The notes beneath the pieces are model-generated. The model was not told the origin of the DNA and searched no databases. It worked only from the letters and a program-made list of their open reading frames with translations. From Halorhabdus sp. BNX81 (lineage in GTDB: Archaea; Halobacteriota; Halobacteria; Halobacteriales; Haloarculaceae): a stretch of 64,000 bases of DNA. Each line of letters opens with the position of its first letter. Within the stretch, counting starts at the first letter, position 1. Position numbers and translations under genes: made by a program. The stretch spans positions 930,001-994,000 of the forward strand of contig NZ_CP107254.1 of the NCBI RefSeq assembly GCF_029229925.1. Reading direction: 5' to 3'. Below are positions 12,385-54,443 of the stretch, in pieces.

Positions 12385-14247
12385 ATGGCTACAGAGGACT
12401 CTCCCGATAAGTTCGAGGATGTGGTGAACCGCCGTAACTTCATGCGGATAGCGGGTGTGACGGGCACCGCCATGCTCGCCGGGTGTGGTGACGGCGAAAC
12501 CGACACAGATACTGGAACAGAGAACGGTGGGACCGAGAACGGTGGCACCGAAAACGGTGGGACCGAGAACGGTGGCACCGAAAACGGTGGGACCGAGAAC
12601 GGTGGCGAAACGGACGTCCAAGACGTCACGGTCAAATCCGTCGCCGCCCGTTCGATGGACCTACTCGACTGGAACGCCCAGTATGCCGGGTGGCCGAACA
12701 TCTGGGGGCGCTGGCTCGTCTACGAGCGCTATGCCCAGTACAACATGGTGGAAAACGAGTGGATCCCGCGGCTCATTGAAGACTGGTCAATCGACGGGAC
12801 GACCGTCACGATCAACATTCGGGACCCGCACAACTACGCCGACGGCGACCCGGTGACCGCCGAGGACATCAAAGTCAACACCGTGATGAACCTCGCGACC
12901 GGGGCCGCGTTCGCGGACGTCTTCGAGTCGTTCAACGAACCCGACGAAAAGACCCTCGAGATCGAGACCAACAAGGAAGTCAACCCGTCGATCCTCGAGT
13001 TCACGATCCTCTCGCAGTTGCAGCAGGCGAAGATGGCCGAGCCCTACGACGAACTCTACCAGCGCTACTGGGAGGACAACGAGGACGGCGTCTCCAGTGA
13101 CATTCAGGGTCGAGAGCCCCAGGAGCCCGACTTCGTCTCCGGGATCTTCGGACAGCAGAGCAAGGACTCGGAGCAGTACATTCTGGAGCGCAACCCCGAG
13201 CACCCTGACGCTGGCAACGTCAACTTCGAGCGCTACCGTTTCCCGACCTACTCGGGCAACCAGAGCAAGTGGGAGGCGATGATCGGCGACAGCGTGGATA
13301 CCGTGATGAGTATCTTCACCCCGTCGAACATTCGGACCCAACTCGCCGACCACTGGCAGGAGTACAACTTCCCCGGCTACTGGGGCGTCGGCTACGTCTT
13401 CAACTTCGACGAGGATGTCGCGCCGCACCTCTCGCAGCGACCGGTTCGGCAGGCCATCACGCACGCCATCAACCGGGAAGAGGTCGTCACCGCCGCGGGC
13501 GCACAGGTCAAAGAGGCTTTCCCGACCCCGGCTGCCATCTCCGCGAACGTCCAGGACGAGTGGATCGACGTGGGTGGCCAGTTCTCAGCGATGCAGGGTG
13601 GCGCAGAGAAGGCTGCCGAGATCATGCAGGACGCCGGCTACGAGAAGAACGGCAACGGGAACTGGGCCATGGACGGCGAGACCGTCACGTTCCAGGTCGT
13701 CGTCCCGAGTAGCTGGAGTGACTGGGTCACCGCGACCCAGGCTGTGGTCCCACAGCTCCAGGACGCCGGATTCGACGCGGAGATCAACCGTGTCAACAAC
13801 ATCAACACGGTCGTCTCGAATGGCGACTTCAAGATGGCGGCGCGTCCGTGGTCGCCCGGCAACGCGCGCTCCTCCTTCCCGTACTTCCCGCTGAACTGGG
13901 TCTTCGGTCGTGCCTACAACAACGCCCACAGCTACCCAGGTGGCGAGGAAGGCAACGAGATCGAGGTTCCGGCGATGGACGGCGACGGCACCATGTCGGT
14001 CAACGTCCAGCAGCGACTCAGCGACCTCTCGACGGCAACCGGCGACGAAGTCGGGGAAATCGTCGAGGAACTCGCGTGGGTTTCCCACCAGGACATCCCG
14101 TACCTGCCGGTCATCAACAAGCGAGAGCAGTCGTTCATCAGCACGCGGCGGCTGTCGGCCCCCGAGAACGATGAACCGGCGGGCAACGTCAAGTGGCCGC
14201 CGTTCTACGCCCCGCGTATCGGAAAGATGCAGTGGCAAGGCGAGTAA
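12385..14247 (+). CDS. ABC transporter substrate-binding lipoprotein, SBP_bac_5 (Dpp/Opp) family
   Basis: 620 residues. The N-terminus carries a Tat signal (NRRNFMRIAGVTG) and a lipobox ending in Cys (AMLAGC), so it is an exported lipoprotein tethered to the membrane. A flexible linker of six TENGG repeats follows, then a family-5 binding fold (WEAMIGDSVDTVMSIF, RPVRQAITHAINREEVV, ITHAINRE). Such proteins bind peptides, but in thermophiles and haloarchaea many bind beta-linked oligosaccharides. With a GH81 glucanase 8 kb away, an oligosaccharide ligand is plausible but unproven. It heads the four-gene importer operon. Confidence 0.9.
   Translation: MATEDSPDKFEDVVNRRNFMRIAGVTGTAMLAGCGDGETDTDTGTENGGTENGGTENGGTENGGTENGGTENGGETDVQDVTVKSVAARSMDLLDWNAQYAGWPNIWGRWLVYERYAQYNMVENEWIPRLIEDWSIDGTTVTINIRDPHNYADGDPVTAEDIKVNTVMNLATGAAFADVFESFNEPDEKTLEIETNKEVNPSILEFTILSQLQQAKMAEPYDELYQRYWEDNEDGVSSDIQGREPQEPDFVSGIFGQQSKDSEQYILERNPEHPDAGNVNFERYRFPTYSGNQSKWEAMIGDSVDTVMSIFTPSNIRTQLADHWQEYNFPGYWGVGYVFNFDEDVAPHLSQRPVRQAITHAINREEVVTAAGAQVKEAFPTPAAISANVQDEWIDVGGQFSAMQGGAEKAAEIMQDAGYEKNGNGNWAMDGETVTFQVVVPSSWSDWVTATQAVVPQLQDAGFDAEINRVNNINTVVSNGDFKMAARPWSPGNARSSFPYFPLNWVFGRAYNNAHSYPGGEEGNEIEVPAMDGDGTMSVNVQQRLSDLSTATGDEVGEIVEELAWVSHQDIPYLPVINKREQSFISTRRLSAPENDEPAGNVKWPPFYAPRIGKMQWQGE
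12517..12606 (+). repeat. Six 15-bp tandem repeats encoding (TENGG)6
   Basis: Six in-frame copies of a 15-bp unit encode Thr-Glu-Asn-Gly-Gly. Two codon variants alternate (acc gag aac / acc gaa aac), giving a higher-order 30-bp period. The array lies between the lipid-anchor Cys and the binding domain, where linker length can vary without loss of function; copy number is likely unstable. Confidence 0.95.
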
Positions 14248-26649: not shown

Positions 26650-27687
26650 ATGAAAGTCATTGATCGATCGGACTTCACGGCGTTGATCGAGGAGTTGATC
26701 GCATCCGATCCGCGGGAGGTAGTCGGGGTACAGGAGAGCGGCGAGCAGTACGTTTTCGATCGGCTGGAGTCGGCCGAGCAACTCGCGCTGGAACATGACC
26801 TGACGGCACTATCGCCGAAGAAGTACGTCATGCCACAGCGTGAGACGCTGTTGACCTACGAACAGACGGACGACGACTACGAGATGCGGGCCGAGGCTGA
26901 TCCGACGGGGCATATCGTCGTCGGCGTCCATCCGTACGATCTCGCAGCGATCAATCAACTCGATAAGATCTTCATCGACACGCTGCAGGACGAACCGTAC
27001 CGCCGCAAGCGCGAGCATTCCGTTCTCATCGGGGTGACAATGCAGGACGTCGCCGACACCTGCTTCGCCGCGAGCATGGGCACCGCGACGATCGACTCGG
27101 GGTATGATCTCATGGTGACTGACCTTGGCGATCGTTTCGCCGTCGACATCGGGACCTTCGAGGGTGATCAGTTGCTGGAGTCGGTTCCGACCCGGAACGC
27201 GAGCGCCGAGGAGGTAGAGCGCGTCGCGGAGATCAAAGCGGACCTCGAAGACGCCTTCGATCGGGAACTCGCCTTTCCGCCGGCTGCACTCCCTACATTG
27301 CTTGAAGCCAGCTACGACGACATGGACTTCTGGGAGGACTATGCCGAGCAGTGTCTCTCGTGTGGCACCTGTAACGTGGTCTGTCCGACCTGCTTCTGTT
27401 TCAGTGTCGATATGATCCGCGACCTTGAGGGCGACAGCGGTCGCCAGGAGCGCCGCTGGGACGGCTGTCTGCTGGAGGACTTCGCGACGGTCGCCCAGGG
27501 CGAGAACTTCCGTGAGGAGGTCGCTCAGCGCCATCGCCACCGGTTCATGCGCAAGGGGTGGTACATCTACGAGCGCTACGGCGACATCGCCTGCGTCGGG
27601 TGTGGCCGGTGTACGCGCCACTGCGTCGCCGGTGTGGCCGATCCCTGTGAGGTCTACAACGAACTCAGGGAGGGACAGCATGCGTAG
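26650..27687 (+). CDS. hydB: [NiFe] hydrogenase beta subunit, 2x[4Fe-4S] (HydB/HyhB-like)
   Basis: 345 residues. The C-terminal third holds two ferredoxin-type clusters: C235, C238, C241, C245 and C315, C318, C321, C325. The N-terminal domain matches the sulfhydrogenase beta subunit, with VGVHPYDLAAI as a conserved block. It passes electrons between the small subunit and the flavoprotein gamma subunit. First gene of a compact beta-gamma-delta-alpha operon typical of group 3b (NADP-linked, bidirectional) hydrogenases. It overlaps the next gene by 8 bp. Confidence 0.9.
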   Translation: MKVIDRSDFTALIEELIASDPREVVGVQESGEQYVFDRLESAEQLALEHDLTALSPKKYVMPQRETLLTYEQTDDDYEMRAEADPTGHIVVGVHPYDLAAINQLDKIFIDTLQDEPYRRKREHSVLIGVTMQDVADTCFAASMGTATIDSGYDLMVTDLGDRFAVDIGTFEGDQLLESVPTRNASAEEVERVAEIKADLEDAFDRELAFPPAALPTLLEASYDDMDFWEDYAEQCLSCGTCNVVCPTCFCFSVDMIRDLEGDSGRQERRWDGCLLEDFATVAQGENFREEVAQRHRHRFMRKGWYIYERYGDIACVGCGRCTRHCVAGVADPCEVYNELREGQHA

Positions 27688-28540
27688 CCAGACGCGAAAA
27701 CGCTTCGAACACGGGGAAAGCGAGTACCAGCCGATCGAGGGCCAGATCGTCTGGATCGACGACCATACTGACGACGACAAGCTGTTCGTGATCGACCTGC
27801 CCGACGGCGTTGCCCTGGATCACGAGCCCGGCCAGTTCGTCCAGCTGTTCGTCCCCGGCGTCGGCGAGGCACCGTTCTCGATCGCCTCGTCACCGACTAA
27901 TGAGGGCCCCTTCGAGTTATGCATCCGCGCGGTTGGCAACGTGACCAACGCGATCCACGACATGGAAGCGGGGGACGTTGTCGGCATCCGCGGTCCCTAC
28001 GGCCAGGGCTTCGACGTCGACGCCATCGCCGGCGAGGACCTCCTCTTTATCGCCGGCGGGATCGGCCTCGCACCGCTGCGCTCGGTGATCAACTACGCCC
28101 TGGATCGCCCCGGGGAGTTCGGCGAGTTGACGACGCTGTACGGCTGTACCGAACCCGCCGAACAGCTGTTTCCGGAGGAACTCGACTCGTGGGCTGGCTC
28201 GGACGTGATGGACTATCGCGAGACCGTCGACGAGGTGCCCGAAGATCAGGCGTGGGACGGCAACATCGGTGTCATTACCTCGCTGATCCCGCCCCTGGAG
28301 TTCGATCCCGAATCCACGGTTGCGCTAGTCTGTGGCCCGCCTGTGATGTACCGTTTTGTCATCAAGGCCCTGCGGGAGAAGGGGCTCGCCGACGACCGCA
28401 TCTACCTCTCCTTAGAGCGCAACATGCACTGTGGCCGCGGGCTCTGTGGGCATTGCCAACTCAACGAACTGTACGTCTGTCTCGACGGGCCCGTGTTTCA
28501 TTATCCGACCGTCCGCGACAAGGAGGAGGCCGAAGTATGA
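27680..28540 (+). CDS. hydG: [NiFe] hydrogenase gamma subunit, FAD/NAD(P)-binding (HydG/HyhG-like)
   Basis: 286 residues of the ferredoxin-NADP reductase fold. An FAD-binding barrel (GQFVQLF, APFSIAS) is followed by an NAD(P)-binding domain (FIAGGIGLAPLRS, ALVCGPPVM). Near the C-terminus a [2Fe-2S] site is formed by C251, C256, C259 and C267. It exchanges electrons with NAD(P)H. Overlaps both neighbours (8 bp upstream, 4 bp downstream). Confidence 0.93.
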   Translation: MRSQTRKRFEHGESEYQPIEGQIVWIDDHTDDDKLFVIDLPDGVALDHEPGQFVQLFVPGVGEAPFSIASSPTNEGPFELCIRAVGNVTNAIHDMEAGDVVGIRGPYGQGFDVDAIAGEDLLFIAGGIGLAPLRSVINYALDRPGEFGELTTLYGCTEPAEQLFPEELDSWAGSDVMDYRETVDEVPEDQAWDGNIGVITSLIPPLEFDPESTVALVCGPPVMYRFVIKALREKGLADDRIYLSLERNMHCGRGLCGHCQLNELYVCLDGPVFHYPTVRDKEEAEV

Positions 28541-29337
28541 CGGGAGAGGCGAAACCGCGTGTCGCCTTCTTCGATTTCACGGGCTGTGAGGGCGATCAGC
28601 TGCAGGTCATCAACCTCGAGGACCGACTGCTGGATCTCGTCGAGGTCGTCGAGGTCGTCAGCTTCCGCGAGGCGATGACCGAACACGGAGACGACTACGA
28701 GATCGCCTTCGTCGAGGGCGGCGTCGCGACGGCCCACGACGAGCGCCGGCTGACCGATGTCCGTGACAACGCCGATGTCGTCGTCGCGCTAGGCTCGTGT
28801 GCCGCCTTTGGGGGCATCAACGCCCTCCGCAACCACCAGGACTTCGAGACGGTCAAAGAGCGGGTGTACGGCGATGACGCCGATTCGATCTCGTCCTATC
28901 CCGTGGCTCGCCCGATCGACGACGTCATCGACGTCGACTACGAGATCCCGGGCTGTCCGATCGATCGCGAGGAGTTCGTCGGGGCGGTCACGGCCCTGGT
29001 CAACGGTGCCGAACCGTCGATCCCAAACTACCCCGTCTGCCTGGAGTGCAAGTTCGAGGAGAACACCTGCGCCTTCGAGCGCGGCGAGACCTGCCTTGGG
29101 CCGATCACTCGCGGCGGCTGTTCGGCGACCTGCGTCTCGGCGGGCACCCACTGCTGGGGCTGTCGGGGCATGGTCGACCATCCGAACGAGGACGCCTACA
29201 CGGACGTTCTCGAAGCCAACGGGCTGACGACCGAGGAAGTGATCGAGGAGTATCAACTCTACTGGGGCTGGCAACGTGATCAGGTGGCAGTCGCTGACGG
29301 CGACTCCCAGCCCGTCGCCGACGGGGGTGAGCGATGA
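28537..29337 (+). CDS. hydD: [NiFe] hydrogenase delta (small) subunit with CxxD proximal site (HydD/HyhS-like)
   Basis: 266 residues, cytoplasmic (no signal peptide). The proximal-cluster region reads TGCEGDQLQ: C17 is present but the usual second Cys of C-x2-C is Asp20 (codon gat at 28594). The other two expected proximal ligands are present in ALGSCAAFGG and PGCPID. The C-terminal half has the many cysteines for the two further clusters (VCLECKFEENTC, TCLGPITRGGC, HCWGCRG). Operon neighbours and overlap are as for the other subunits. Asp can ligate a [4Fe-4S] cluster, so this may be functional rather than a defect. Confidence 0.92.
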   Translation: MTGEAKPRVAFFDFTGCEGDQLQVINLEDRLLDLVEVVEVVSFREAMTEHGDDYEIAFVEGGVATAHDERRLTDVRDNADVVVALGSCAAFGGINALRNHQDFETVKERVYGDDADSISSYPVARPIDDVIDVDYEIPGCPIDREEFVGAVTALVNGAEPSIPNYPVCLECKFEENTCAFERGETCLGPITRGGCSATCVSAGTHCWGCRGMVDHPNEDAYTDVLEANGLTTEEVIEEYQLYWGWQRDQVAVADGDSQPVADGGER

Positions 29338-30653
29338 GTCACACGATCGACGTCGAGGGCGACCTCGTCACCCGCGTCGAGGGCCACGGCTCGATCGTGG
29401 TCAACGCCGAGGACGGCGAACTCGAAACCTGCGAGTGGCAGGTCGTCGAATCTCCGCGGTATTTCGAATCGATGCTGGTCGGTCGCTCCTTCGAGGAATC
29501 CCATCATATCACCTCGCGGATCTGTGCCATCTGCTCGGTCAGTCACACGATCGCCTCGCTGCAGGCAACTGAGGCGGCCCTCGGGATCTCCGTCTCCGAG
29601 CAGGACCGCCGGCTGCGAAAGCTTGCGCTCTACGGCGAGACGCTTCAGAGCCACGTCCTGCACCTGGGCTATCTCGCGTTGCCGGATCTGGTCGGCGAGA
29701 AATCCGTCCTGCCGCTTGCGGACACACACGAGGACGAACTGGAGACTGTGATCGATCTCCACCGGCTGGGCAACGAGTTGACCGAAGTCGTCACCGGCCG
29801 ATCGGTCCACGCTCAGCGCCTGCTCCCTGGCGGTTTCTCCCAGCTTCCCGACGAGAGCGAACTCCAAGCGCTGCTCGATCGGCTCCTCAACAGCTGGGAT
29901 GCCGTCGCGGAACTCGCCGACCTGCTGGCCGTTCTGGCCGATGAACTCCCCGCTTTCGAGCGTGAGACCGAGTATATCTCGCTCACCCATCCCGAGGAGT
30001 ACGCTTTCGCCGAGGGCACGATCTACTCATCGGATGTCGGGGAGATCCCCGTCTCCGACTATCGGGACGTCGCCAACGAGTACGTCGTCGAGCACTCGAC
30101 GGCCAAATTCGCGCGGCACGAGCGCGATTCGTATATGGTCGGCGCGCTGGCCCGCTTCAACAACAACGCCGACCAGCTTGCCCCGCGGGCCCAGGAGGTC
30201 GCCGATCGCTTCGGTCTGGACGCGCCCGCCCACAATCCGTATCTGAACAACGTCGCCCAACTTGTCGAGGTCGCCCACCTCCTCGGGGAGTCCGTCCGGC
30301 TGATCGAGGCGTTGCTGGACGATGGCCTCACCCCGCAGTCGAACTACCACGTCCCCGAGATCGACCCGACCGCGGGCCAGGGGATCGGGGCCATCGAGGT
30401 GCCCCGCGGCGTGCTCTTCCACGAGTACGCCTACGACGACACCGGCGAGGTGACCGAGGCCAACTGCGTCATCCCCACCAACCAGAACCACGGCAACATC
30501 CAACGGGACATGGAGACGCTGGTGCCGACGATCGTCGACCACCCCGAGGACGAAATCAAGCACACCCTGGAGATGCTCGTCCGGGCCTACGACCCCTGTA
30601 TCTCCTGTTCGACGCACTATCTCGACGTCGAGTTCGTCGGTCCCAACGGATGA
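29334..30653 (+). CDS. hydA: [NiFe] hydrogenase alpha (large, catalytic) subunit (HydA/HyhL-like)
   Basis: 439 residues. The active-site motifs are L1 RICAICSVSH (C64, C67) and L2 DPCISCSTH (C422, C425, H428), which together supply the four Ni-Fe cysteines. Eleven residues follow H428; these are expected to be removed by the maturation protease encoded just downstream. Together with HydB, HydG and HydD it forms a soluble NAD(P)-linked hydrogenase, able to evolve H2 to dispose of reductant or take it up. The hyp genes for Fe(CN)2CO assembly are not in the window. Confidence 0.93.
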   Translation: MSHTIDVEGDLVTRVEGHGSIVVNAEDGELETCEWQVVESPRYFESMLVGRSFEESHHITSRICAICSVSHTIASLQATEAALGISVSEQDRRLRKLALYGETLQSHVLHLGYLALPDLVGEKSVLPLADTHEDELETVIDLHRLGNELTEVVTGRSVHAQRLLPGGFSQLPDESELQALLDRLLNSWDAVAELADLLAVLADELPAFERETEYISLTHPEEYAFAEGTIYSSDVGEIPVSDYRDVANEYVVEHSTAKFARHERDSYMVGALARFNNNADQLAPRAQEVADRFGLDAPAHNPYLNNVAQLVEVAHLLGESVRLIEALLDDGLTPQSNYHVPEIDPTAGQGIGAIEVPRGVLFHEYAYDDTGEVTEANCVIPTNQNHGNIQRDMETLVPTIVDHPEDEIKHTLEMLVRAYDPCISCSTHYLDVEFVGPNG

Positions 30654-51005: not shown

Positions 51006-51189
51006 GGCCGCTCGTTCCAGGGGGCTTGTTATAAATTCCGTGGTGTTGTGGTTGGCTGTTCCCGGTCGGCCCGTGACACCACAACCGGAGACGAACACGA
51101 CGATTGTGGCCCTGTTGTCGTGCAGGCTGGGGCCCGATGCTGGTTTTCTCCGGGATCACAGCGGTAGTGTTTCTTCTTCGACACGAACC

Positions 51190-51258: not shown

Positions 51259-52308
51259 ATGTCGAATCCGAATCCTGAAACACAAGATGACGCGATTAGT
51301 GGGTCGACAACGCGCCGGGGCTTCCTGCAATTCGCCGGTGGGGCCTCGGCGGGAACGATCATCGCTGAACACGTCGGGGAAGTCCAAGCCGCGCTTCAGC
51401 AGGTGACCGAGGGTGATCGTGAGGTGGTCTGGCTGCAGGGCCAATCCTGCAGTGGGTGTACCATCTCCATGCTTCAGAGTCCACATCCGGCCCTAGAGGA
51501 TGTCATCAGCGAGTTCCGCGTGGCAGTAACGTTCCATCCCACGCTCATGACCGAGGCGGGTGAGGCCGCCCTCGACGCATTGAGCACCGATCCGGACGTG
51601 CTGATCGTCGAGGGGGCGATTCCCGCCGGGATGCCCCAGGCCGCGACCGTCGGTCACACTGACGAGGGCCACCGCAAACCTGTCCTCGATTGGGTCGAAG
51701 AATTGGCCCCGCGGGCCGAGTATGTGATCGCCGTCGGCAACTGCGCTGCCCGTGGCGGCTGGCTAGCGGCCGGCCGCGGACGGGAGCTGTACGACAGGGA
51801 GGACAACGTGACGGATGCCCACGGGCTTCAGTTCCAGGGCCGCAACCGGGAGGGCATCCTCGATCCGGAATTCACTGCCGGAGCCGGGTTGCCGGTCTTG
51901 AACCTGCAGGGGTGCCCACCCAACCCAGACAACATTCTGTTGACCCTAACGATGATTCTTACCGGGAATCCGCCGGAACTCGACGAGTACAACCGGCCGG
52001 TGACGTTCTATGAATCGGACGGTGGCCGTCGACGGCACGGGCGTTCTAACCGCCAGGAGTCAGCCAGCAACGACAGCCGCCCACGGCATGGGCGGTCTGG
52101 ACGCCAGGCGTCAGCCAGTAACGACAGCCGCCCACGGCATGGGCGGTCTGGACGCCAGGCGTCAGCCAGTAACGACAGCCGCCCACGGCATGGGCGGTCT
52201 GGACGCCAGGCGTCAGCCGGCCAGGGAACCCGTCGACGATGCGTGCATTCTGGACGTCAGGAGTCGGCTGAGCGGACAGACAACACCGACGTCACCGAAA
52301 CGAGGTGA
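51259..52308 (+). CDS. hyaA: Tat-exported [NiFe] hydrogenase small subunit lacking the C-terminal FeS domain, with a 17-residue repeat tail
   Basis: 349 residues. The Tat signal TTRRGFLQFAGG has RR at 19-20, so the partner large subunit is carried across the membrane with it. The N-terminal flavodoxin-like domain is complete: C64 and C67 (GQSCSGCTIS), C162 (VGNCAARGG) and C219 (LQGCPPNPD) give the proximal cluster. The protein then reaches the group 1 block PPELDEYNRPVTFY at about 238-251, after which the usual Cys/His-rich domain of medial and distal clusters should follow. Instead, residues 252-349 are a basic Arg/Ser/Gly repeat tail. The stop lies 6 bp before the large-subunit gene. It may be a functional shortened type or a decayed gene. 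Confidence 0.85.
   Translation: MSNPNPETQDDAISGSTTRRGFLQFAGGASAGTIIAEHVGEVQAALQQVTEGDREVVWLQGQSCSGCTISMLQSPHPALEDVISEFRVAVTFHPTLMTEAGEAALDALSTDPDVLIVEGAIPAGMPQAATVGHTDEGHRKPVLDWVEELAPRAEYVIAVGNCAARGGWLAAGRGRELYDREDNVTDAHGLQFQGRNREGILDPEFTAGAGLPVLNLQGCPPNPDNILLTLTMILTGNPPELDEYNRPVTFYESDGGRRRHGRSNRQESASNDSRPRHGRSGRQASASNDSRPRHGRSGRQASASNDSRPRHGRSGRQASAGQGTRRRCVHSGRQESAERTDNTDVTETR
52018..52272 (+). repeat. Five 51-bp tandem units in the hydrogenase small-subunit gene
   Basis: Units at 52018, 52069, 52120, 52171 and 52222. The three central units are nearly identical and encode NDSRPRHGRSGRQASAS; the outer two are diverged but keep length and frame. The period is exactly 17 codons. The encoded Arg-rich tail is unusual in an acidic haloarchaeal proteome. 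High identity of the central units suggests recent slippage or recombination. Confidence 0.95.
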
Positions 52309-52314
52309 CCTCAT

Positions 52315-53934
52315 ATGCCGGAGATAACGATCAATCCGACGACGCGTATCGAGGGCCATCACGCGACGACACTCGATGTCGAGGACGGCGTCGTACAGGA
52401 CGCAAAGAGCCACATGGAAATGTTCCGTGGCATCGAGTCGGTCACGCTCGAACGCCCCCCGTCAGCTGTCCCGGATATCACGGGAAAGGTCTGTGGTGTC
52501 TGTTTTACCTGTCACAGACTGACCTCCTCGCGGGCGGTTGAAGACGCCGCGATGGCGGCCGGCGTCTTCGACGGCGTCCCGCGGAACGCCCATCTCCTCC
52601 GGGATGCGATGGAGGGGATCTTCTACTTGTGGAACCATACGATCCATCTCTACGCGCTGGCCGGGCCGGACTACAGCGATGCCGTCGCAGGAACTGGCCT
52701 GACGCGCCTCGATCCCATGGAAGGCGAGGGCTATCTGGAAGCGATGGACCACCAGCGCACGCTGATGCAGGCTTTCGCCGAGTTCGGCGGTCGCGTTCCG
52801 AATTCGCTGACCTACGTACCGGGGGGGATGTCCGCCAATCCCGACGCCTCGACCATTCAGTCGGTCAAAGACCACGTCGCGTCGGTCAGCGAGTGGATCG
52901 GCCCGACTGACGCTGTCCCCGAGGTGATCGAGAACGTCCGAAACGGGGAGTTCGAGCCATCGGTCGGTGCTGGACTCCATGACCTCGTCGGGCTGTTGTA
53001 TGCTGCCGCCGAGGAAGGTGCGGCGGAGTACGGCGTCGGTCCCCGTCGGTACTATTCAAACGGCGTGTTCCGCCTCCCCGAACGTGAAGAGTTCCTCTTC
53101 AAGCGCGGGATCTACCGCGACGGGTCGATCGAACCACAGACCAAAGCGGAGATCCTCGACGCGATCACCGAAAGTACGGCCCACTCGTGGTACACCGATG
53201 ATTCGGCTGGCCGTCCCGCTTCGGCCAAACCGCCCGAACCCGCCCCCGGGAAGGACGGGGCCTATTCGTGGGGAAAAGCACCGCGCTACGAGGGCCAGCC
53301 CATGGAAGTCGGTCCCCTGGCACGGCTCGTGATCTCGGATATCGATCCCTTCGACTTGCGGGCGGAGTTGGGCGGGGCGAGCGCGGCGAGTAATACGCTC
53401 AACCGTCTTATCGCCCGTACCCAGGAGATCCTGCTCGTTCGGGACAACGTTCTGGGACTGCTTGATGCGATCGAGCCCGGCGACCCCTTCACAGCCGAGT
53501 GGGACGACGACTTTGACGGGCAGGGCGTCAGTCTGTTCGAAGCCTCCCGGGGCGCACTCTCACACTGGGCCGATGTCCGGAACGGACAGATCAATCAGTA
53601 CCAGATCGTCACGCCGACGCTGTGGAACATGGGGCCTCGCGATAGCGACGATACCCCAGGGCCGCTCGAATCGGCGCTGGTCGGCATGGAGGTCGAGGAC
53701 GTGGAGACGCCCCTGGACGTGATGCGGACGATCCGATCGATGGACCCGTGTCTGGCCTGCTCCGTCCACCTTCAGACGCCGACCGGCGAGTACGAGACAG
53801 TCCTCGAACCGGCTACGCCGGGGGCCGTCGGCAAGGAGACAACCAACACGTCTGAGGACACCGACGTGATGGATAAATCCGCGAAATCGGACGCGACGAA
53901 CGAATCTGGTGGCAAAATCACGGACGACCGATGA
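52315..53934 (+). CDS. hyaB: [NiFe] hydrogenase large subunit, group 1-like
   Basis: 539 residues. Group 1 features are the N-terminal INPTTRIEGHH, the RGIESV block, L1 KVCGVCFTCH (C60, C63, H67; the usual Arg before it is Lys58) and L2 DPCLACSVH (C479, C482, H485). A tail of 54 residues follows H485, rich in Ser, Thr, Asp and Glu, far longer than the usual cleaved peptide of about 15. An SD-like gaggtga precedes the ATG. Paired with the Tat small subunit, it should face outside and oxidise H2. No cytochrome b subunit is encoded in the window. Confidence 0.92.
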   Translation: MPEITINPTTRIEGHHATTLDVEDGVVQDAKSHMEMFRGIESVTLERPPSAVPDITGKVCGVCFTCHRLTSSRAVEDAAMAAGVFDGVPRNAHLLRDAMEGIFYLWNHTIHLYALAGPDYSDAVAGTGLTRLDPMEGEGYLEAMDHQRTLMQAFAEFGGRVPNSLTYVPGGMSANPDASTIQSVKDHVASVSEWIGPTDAVPEVIENVRNGEFEPSVGAGLHDLVGLLYAAAEEGAAEYGVGPRRYYSNGVFRLPEREEFLFKRGIYRDGSIEPQTKAEILDAITESTAHSWYTDDSAGRPASAKPPEPAPGKDGAYSWGKAPRYEGQPMEVGPLARLVISDIDPFDLRAELGGASAASNTLNRLIARTQEILLVRDNVLGLLDAIEPGDPFTAEWDDDFDGQGVSLFEASRGALSHWADVRNGQINQYQIVTPTLWNMGPRDSDDTPGPLESALVGMEVEDVETPLDVMRTIRSMDPCLACSVHLQTPTGEYETVLEPATPGAVGKETTNTSEDTDVMDKSAKSDATNESGGKITDDR

Positions 53935-54443
53935 CGTTGTTCGATGAGGACGAGTCGGACGTGGCGGTCGTCGGCGTCGGTAACGCGATCATGGGCGATG
54001 ACGGTGTCGGCGGGCGAGTGATCCGCGCACTACAGGACCGCGCCGACGAACTGACTGATGGAGTTCGCCTGTCTGACGCTGGCACGACTGGCATGCTCGC
54101 CCTTGAAGCGATGAGCGGCTGTGAGCGGGCGATCGTGGTCGACGCTATCAGCGCCGATGGCGAACCGGGCTCGATCTATCGTTATGAGCTCACAGACGGA
54201 AGTTTCGACGGCCAAGCCCCGCCGATTTCGATGCACGATGTTTCCTTCTGTGAGGGCCTCTCAGCCGGCCGGAACGCATACGAATTGCCCGCGGAGATCC
54301 TGGTGATCGGCGTCGAGCCTGCACGCATCGAGCTATCCGTCGAATTGAGCGAGACGGTCGCCGAACGGGTGCCCGAAATCGTCGACCTGATCCTTCGGGA
54401 ACTGGACCGCGAGCCAGTCGACGAATCGGTGGTCCGGGCGTGA
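53931..54443 (+). CDS. hyaD: [NiFe] hydrogenase maturation protease, HyaD-like
   Basis: 170 residues, peptidase M52. Motifs: GVGNAIMGDDGVGGRV, DAGTTGML, AIVVDAISADGEPGS, SMHDVSFCEGL and VIGVEPARIEL. The start overlaps the large-subunit stop by 4 bp (ATGA), so it serves that subunit. It is a distinct sequence from the protease of the cytoplasmic hydrogenase, so each enzyme has its own. Last gene of the operon; the convergent permease gene ends 35 bp away. Confidence 0.92.
   Translation: MTLFDEDESDVAVVGVGNAIMGDDGVGGRVIRALQDRADELTDGVRLSDAGTTGMLALEAMSGCERAIVVDAISADGEPGSIYRYELTDGSFDGQAPPISMHDVSFCEGLSAGRNAYELPAEILVIGVEPARIELSVELSETVAERVPEIVDLILRELDREPVDESVVRA

Follow-up and report, generated by a model that had tools for sequence, protein, structure and literature searches.

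Respiratory H2-uptake hydrogenases of the haloarchaeal HydABC type, accompanied by HydD, have been described from Halodesulfurarchaeum formicicum (PMC5437934) and from Natrarchaeobaculum sulfurireducens and other AArc strains (PMC6176080), and a HydABC-HydD-Hyp cassette is on record for haloarchaea growing on H2 with sulfur (PMC5437934, PMC6176080). The locus considered here was found in Halorhabdus sp. BNX81 (genome label G000), in a window of 64,000 nucleotides (G000:C1:930001-994000, within one 2.83-Mb contig), and its operon consists of the genes for a small subunit, a large subunit, and a protease, in this order. The small subunit is truncated, with the following features.

51259-52308, + strand: truncated [NiFe]-hydrogenase small subunit (HydA type), 349 aa (sequence and Pfam)
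51307-51330, + strand: twin-arginine motif TTRRGFLQ, residues 17-24 (alignment with relatives)
51421-52014, + strand: flavodoxin-like domain with the proximal cluster (Pfam Oxidored_q6, alignment, and fold matches)
52015-52305, + strand: C-terminal tail in place of the medial/distal-cluster domain, with none of the 8 ligands and predicted to be disordered
52025-52218, + strand: 51-bp tandem repeat of 3.8 copies, in frame, with a 17-aa unit (repeat search)

Pfam places Oxidored_q6 at residues 64-232 of the small subunit, the proximal-cluster ligands C64, C67, C162, and C219 are all present in the alignment, and the fold matches of the N-terminal domain are solved hydrogenase small subunits. Arg19 and Arg20 of the Tat motif are nearly invariant or invariant across the relatives, and a Tat-type small subunit with such an export signal would belong to an exported enzyme. 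Homology stops at PVTFYE(S), residue 252. The original prediction had described a chain that follows the group 1 pattern and then loses the domain for the medial and distal clusters, with a single Cys in its C-terminal part and no frame encoding the missing Cys-rich domain, and this description was borne out in full: the open reading frame is as described, NiFe_hyd_SSU_C (PF14720) was not found in the small subunit of the window, while full-length relatives have both Oxidored_q6 and NiFe_hyd_SSU_C, residues 253-349 hold one Cys, and the Cys-rich domain is absent from every frame of the tail. What had gone unmentioned is that residues 253-349 are mostly made up of the 17-aa (51-bp) tandem repeat. 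GC content by codon position is 0.69/0.47/0.74 in the N-terminal domain and 0.69/0.71/0.64 in the tail, which thus carries no codon-position signal. In a full-chain model of middling confidence (mean pLDDT 65), residues 254-275 and 277-349 fall below a pLDDT of 50, and the tail is accordingly predicted to be disordered. A further tandem repeat, of 15 bp/30 bp, was observed elsewhere in the window (12520-12606, GAGAACGGTGGGACC).

The search with the N-terminal domain covered two overlapping draws, one of 392 genomes from the order and one of 391 from the class. Within the genus, the gene is present in two of the seven genomes, the second being G316, whose small subunit (331 aa) is also truncated and is 82% identical over 252 aa. 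G316 has an operon of identical gene content and order, with large subunits that are 87% and proteases that are 79% identical, and the genes flanking the operon show no homology between the two genomes. All 27 of the other relatives from which a full protein was extracted possess a complete Cys-rich C-terminal domain. An alignment-based scan of a second collection retrieved 16 loci (13 haloarchaeal ones, overlapping with the first set, and three distant ones), every one of them full-length, and a single-sequence scan of that collection gave no match; in a search of plasmids, the best matches were genes of the full-length family (C-termini read for part of them). In the tree, G000 and G316 form one clade with a support of 100/100, adjoining a full-length clade. 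According to the original prediction, a local deletion or assembly collapse would be indicated if relatives with the same gene order all encoded a full-length small subunit; G316, with its identical three-gene order, turned out to be truncated as well. A tandem repeat is a typical error site, so a local assembly collapse, a sequencing error, or a recent deletion in G000 alone might be suspected from the tail. However, the independent genome of G316 has a different tail with the same loss and a decayed remnant, and the frame is open to a conserved stop; assembly collapse is ruled out by this second genome, and we consider this whole group of explanations hardly credible. The best reading is that the truncation arose once, in the common ancestor of G000 and G316. 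As the tail interiors of the two show no homology above shuffles at the DNA level, shared ancestry of the truncation rests on other evidence, namely the point at which it sets in, the derived residues ES..DG..RRRH, the loss of hydC from both genomes, shared changes in the large subunit, and the clade itself. Among the relatives, a few peculiarities of small subunits were also noted. The full-length small subunit of G155 (L036:9611-10711) has SCSGDS for SCSGCT as its second proximal-cluster Cys motif, with Asp replacing a ligand, which is reminiscent of SGNT in Huc; some other full-length small subunits (L040:9995-11248, L106:9962-11233, and L107:9971-11194) end in an extra Cys-rich tail, e.g., DGCGCGGDCGCR; and three genomes of one genus (G109, G218, and G259) have two hydrogenase small-subunit copies each.

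Compared with a C-domain profile of 27 relatives, the G316 tail scored 17.2 bits, which none of 3000 shuffles reached (maximum 8.8). The main match covers 48 residues, ungapped and colinear, and a general alignment with MAFFT independently paired the same tail residues with the C-terminal domain; for the G000 tail, similarity to this profile was not detectable. The eight ligands of the medial and distal clusters are kept in all 23 full-length relatives, two of them are left in G316 (6/8 gone), and none in G000. Identity to the full-length consensus over the C-terminal domain amounts to 37% in G316 and 16% in G000, compared with 89-97% in the six full-length relatives listed, and over the N-terminal domain to 79-82% in the two truncated species versus 89-97% in those six. 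Judged by these matches, the C-terminal domain is one that decayed in place, with a remnant still recognisable in G316. The remnant is offset by 17 residues (51 nt) from a weaker match of its own start, a distance equal to the repeat unit of the G000 tail, which suggests that the repeat may have begun as a duplication inside the decaying domain. Two other origins were considered for the tails and rejected. For an origin by copying from another genomic site, the matches obtained in seven congeneric genomes were all short and unconvincing, and for the G316 tail as an inverted gene fragment, of which the antisense strand reads hydrophobic, codon-position GC gives no support and the remnant match offers the better explanation.

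Thirteen loci were compared with regard to their neighbouring genes (the window, G316, and 11 full-length loci). In nine of these, a cytochrome b561-type gene (Ni_hydr_CYTB) follows the large subunit, and hyp genes stand behind the protease in most of the full-length loci. A HydC homologue was not detectable anywhere in the genomes of G000 or G316. HydC is likewise missing beside the full-length small subunits of G251 and G345, so that its absence alone does not imply truncation. The original prediction had offered, as one of two options, a gene that decayed while its operon stayed intact. Decay in place of the C-terminal domain agrees with the former part, as the G316 remnant attests, but the operon is not wholly intact, the cytochrome b gene being gone. 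The missing domain could alternatively be supplied in trans by a separate gene. We found no point in support of this, and besides the lack of HydC, no copy of the C-terminal domain was present elsewhere in either genome except the G316 remnant itself (one relative's domain served as the query, which a very divergent replacement would escape); such an arrangement therefore appears very doubtful.

The upstream region and the remaining genes of the operon show the following features.

51156-51183, + strand: 28-nt block, putative promoter/regulatory region, conserved in G316 (local alignment)
52302-52320, + strand: Shine-Dalgarno sequence GAGGTGA containing the small-subunit stop codon, and the large-subunit ATG (conserved in G316)
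52315-53934, + strand: [NiFe]-hydrogenase large subunit, 539 aa (Pfam NiFeSe_Hases, E=1.4e-84)
52801-52803, + strand: N163 in place of an otherwise invariant His, adjoining the proximal cluster (alignment)
53931-54443, + strand: hydrogenase maturation protease (HydD/HycI family), with a 4-nt overlap with the large-subunit stop (Pfam)

The upstream block lies about 100 bp 5' of the operon and is conserved with G316 though the flanking genes differ; the local alignment of G000 with G316 scored 31, and none of 500 shuffles scored as high. The repeat-filled open tail of the small subunit would be a neutral leftover, and its frame may persist since the small-subunit stop sits inside the ribosome-binding site of the large subunit, which would couple their translation. 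A candidate electron partner was not found adjoining the operon, nor were diaphorase genes (HoxFU-like) evident next to it. The hypD gene is located elsewhere in the G000 genome, within a cluster of hyp-like genes. About 21 kb upstream of the operon, the window also holds a cluster of group 3b-type sulfhydrogenase/NAD(P) hydrogenase genes (ShyB-, ShyC-, and ShyA-like, 26650-30653), which may account for the retention of hyp genes throughout the congeners.

In the large subunit, the Ni-Fe ligands C60, C63, C479, and C482 as well as the DPCxxCxxH processing site are intact. Among 183 positions that are invariant in 23 full-length relatives, 173 are kept in both truncated species and eight have changed jointly in G000 and G316. 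Site 163 is His in all 23 full-length relatives and Asn in both truncated species (H163N). In the alignment it falls on the PH motif of solved hydrogenases, Huc among them, and on His229 of Hyd-1 and Hyd-5, the offset to the Hyd-1 chain (139 to 205) giving residue 229. This histidine is described as completely conserved in [NiFe]-hydrogenases and as a neighbour of the proximal cluster (PMC3940037). The same stem branch has thus seen changes in the electron relay, the membrane acceptor, and the His beside the remaining cluster. As a further observation, the C-terminal extension after DPCLACSVH (window 53770-53931) is about 25 residues longer in both truncated species than in the full-length relatives compared.

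Between G000 and G316, dN/dS is 0.16 for the small-subunit N-terminal domain (0.092/0.580), 0.17 for the large subunit (0.070/0.412), and 0.26 for the protease (0.120/0.463), and full-length pairs at similar divergence gave 0.10-0.20 for the N-terminal domain and 0.06-0.15 for the large subunit. Purifying selection acts on the three remaining genes in both species, and if the truncation is older than the species split, as its position, the shared derived residues, and the shared losses indicate, they have been constrained without the C-terminal domain. The large subunit may be mildly relaxed, with a value about twice that of close full-length pairs of genus g7 (0.06-0.09) and similar to that of G301/G275 (0.14). 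These values bear on the possibility that the operon is dying; its role would have been lost in the ancestor, with a slow decay of all three genes that began with the C-terminal domain. The decayed domain, the lost hydC, and the exchange of the invariant His163 for Asn would fit such a course, as would a large-subunit dN/dS at the upper end of the full-length pairs, and the Hyp genes may persist only for other [NiFe] enzymes of the genome. However, the comparison of two species that already lacked the domain gives a dN/dS of 0.16-0.26 for every one of the three genes, all six genes compared are free of stops and frameshifts, the invariant large-subunit positions are largely kept, including all Ni-Fe ligands, and the upstream region is conserved, which makes a dying operon unlikely, if far from negligible. 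Purifying selection in two species favours a retained proximal-cluster-only enzyme over a dead gene. Alternatively, the dimer might be kept for a role without electron export, e.g., as an H2-binding sensor or scavenger, which would suit a conserved Ni-Fe site that has lost its relay and membrane acceptor, and also the His-to-Asn exchange adjoining the proximal cluster. Yet no kinase, regulator, or receptor gene is evident adjoining the operon, the protein has an export signal, and the known regulatory hydrogenase HoxBC retains a full relay, so that we hold such a role to be improbable.

We favour, with a probability of roughly 55%, a derived haloarchaeal respiratory H2-uptake hydrogenase whose relay was lost once in the ancestor and which survives as an exported, proximal-cluster-only enzyme. 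Its forebear would have been a quinone-reducing member of the haloarchaeal HydABC plus HydD family. In the common ancestor of the two species, the C-terminal domain of the small subunit, with the medial and distal clusters and a membrane-anchor-like end, would have become dispensable and decayed where it stood, and hydC, the gene for cytochrome b, would have been lost. The product would be a Tat-exported dimer, matured by Hyp proteins and the protease, that holds the Ni-Fe site together with a single proximal cluster; quinone would no longer be reduced by it, and electrons may enter or leave at the proximal-cluster face that loss of the domain has exposed. They would be exchanged with a soluble partner or small acceptor, much as in HoxHY, where a different subunit receives the electrons. 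Direct exit of electrons from the proximal cluster to a partner was the other option of the original prediction, and elements of both options come together here, a domain that decayed and a retained enzyme from which electrons may exit in this way; no partner was found. Besides this, several points count against the retained enzyme: the exchange of the invariant His may reflect damage to the surroundings of the proximal cluster instead of tuning, the large-subunit dN/dS is raised relative to genus g7, and the operon occurs in only two of seven congeners. More tentatively, at somewhat below even odds, we propose that an exported enzyme of respiratory descent has lost its relay and membrane partner, has had its proximal cluster tuned by the His-to-Asn exchange, and exchanges electrons directly with an extracellular partner. 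If true, this would constitute a natural experiment on why the invariant histidine and the medial and distal clusters are needed, with a decaying remnant visible in a sister species, and would hint at an H2-linked electron route outside haloarchaeal cells that has so far gone unrecognised. A dying operon would instead provide a clear case of domain-by-domain decay while the rest stays constrained.

The family itself is known, as are single-cluster small subunits elsewhere, and our literature search found no exported respiratory enzyme with such a secondary loss that also lacks HydC and the invariant His. The window enzyme resembles HydABC plus HydD in the Tat-type N-terminal domain of its small subunit (about 60% identical), with the Tat motif and four proximal Cys residues, in its large subunit with two CxxC Ni-Fe motifs (55-68% identical), in its maturation protease, and in the gene order, and it is nested adjoining HydABC members in the tree. 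As in HydABC, the protease is adjacent, but the hyp genes stand elsewhere in the genome rather than adjoining. Unlike HydABC, the window enzyme does without the medial/distal-cluster domain, the hydrophobic C-terminus, and HydC, and its large subunit has Asn where an otherwise invariant His lies close to the proximal cluster. In group 4 hydrogenases and complex I (EchC, HycG, and NuoB-type), the small subunit carries the proximal (N2-type) cluster alone, a feature that the window enzyme shares; those systems, however, are large membrane complexes with other FeS subunits, are not exported, and belong to a different lineage. Proximal-cluster-only small subunits are also known in cytoplasmic hydrogenases with partner subunits. 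The likeness to HoxHY (group 3d), a small subunit with a single FeS cluster, is drawn from sequence and concerns how the enzymes would work rather than kinship. HoxY has one cluster, which corresponds to N2 of complex I, the small subunit corresponding to Nqo6, and HoxHY, isolated as a dimer, both oxidises H2 and reduces protons (PMC3189943), which by analogy suggests that a dimer with one small-subunit cluster could work. HoxHY is cytoplasmic and ancestrally short, with HoxFU as partners and FMN in HoxY, whereas the short form in the window, with no partner gene adjacent, would be secondary and carries a Tat motif for export.
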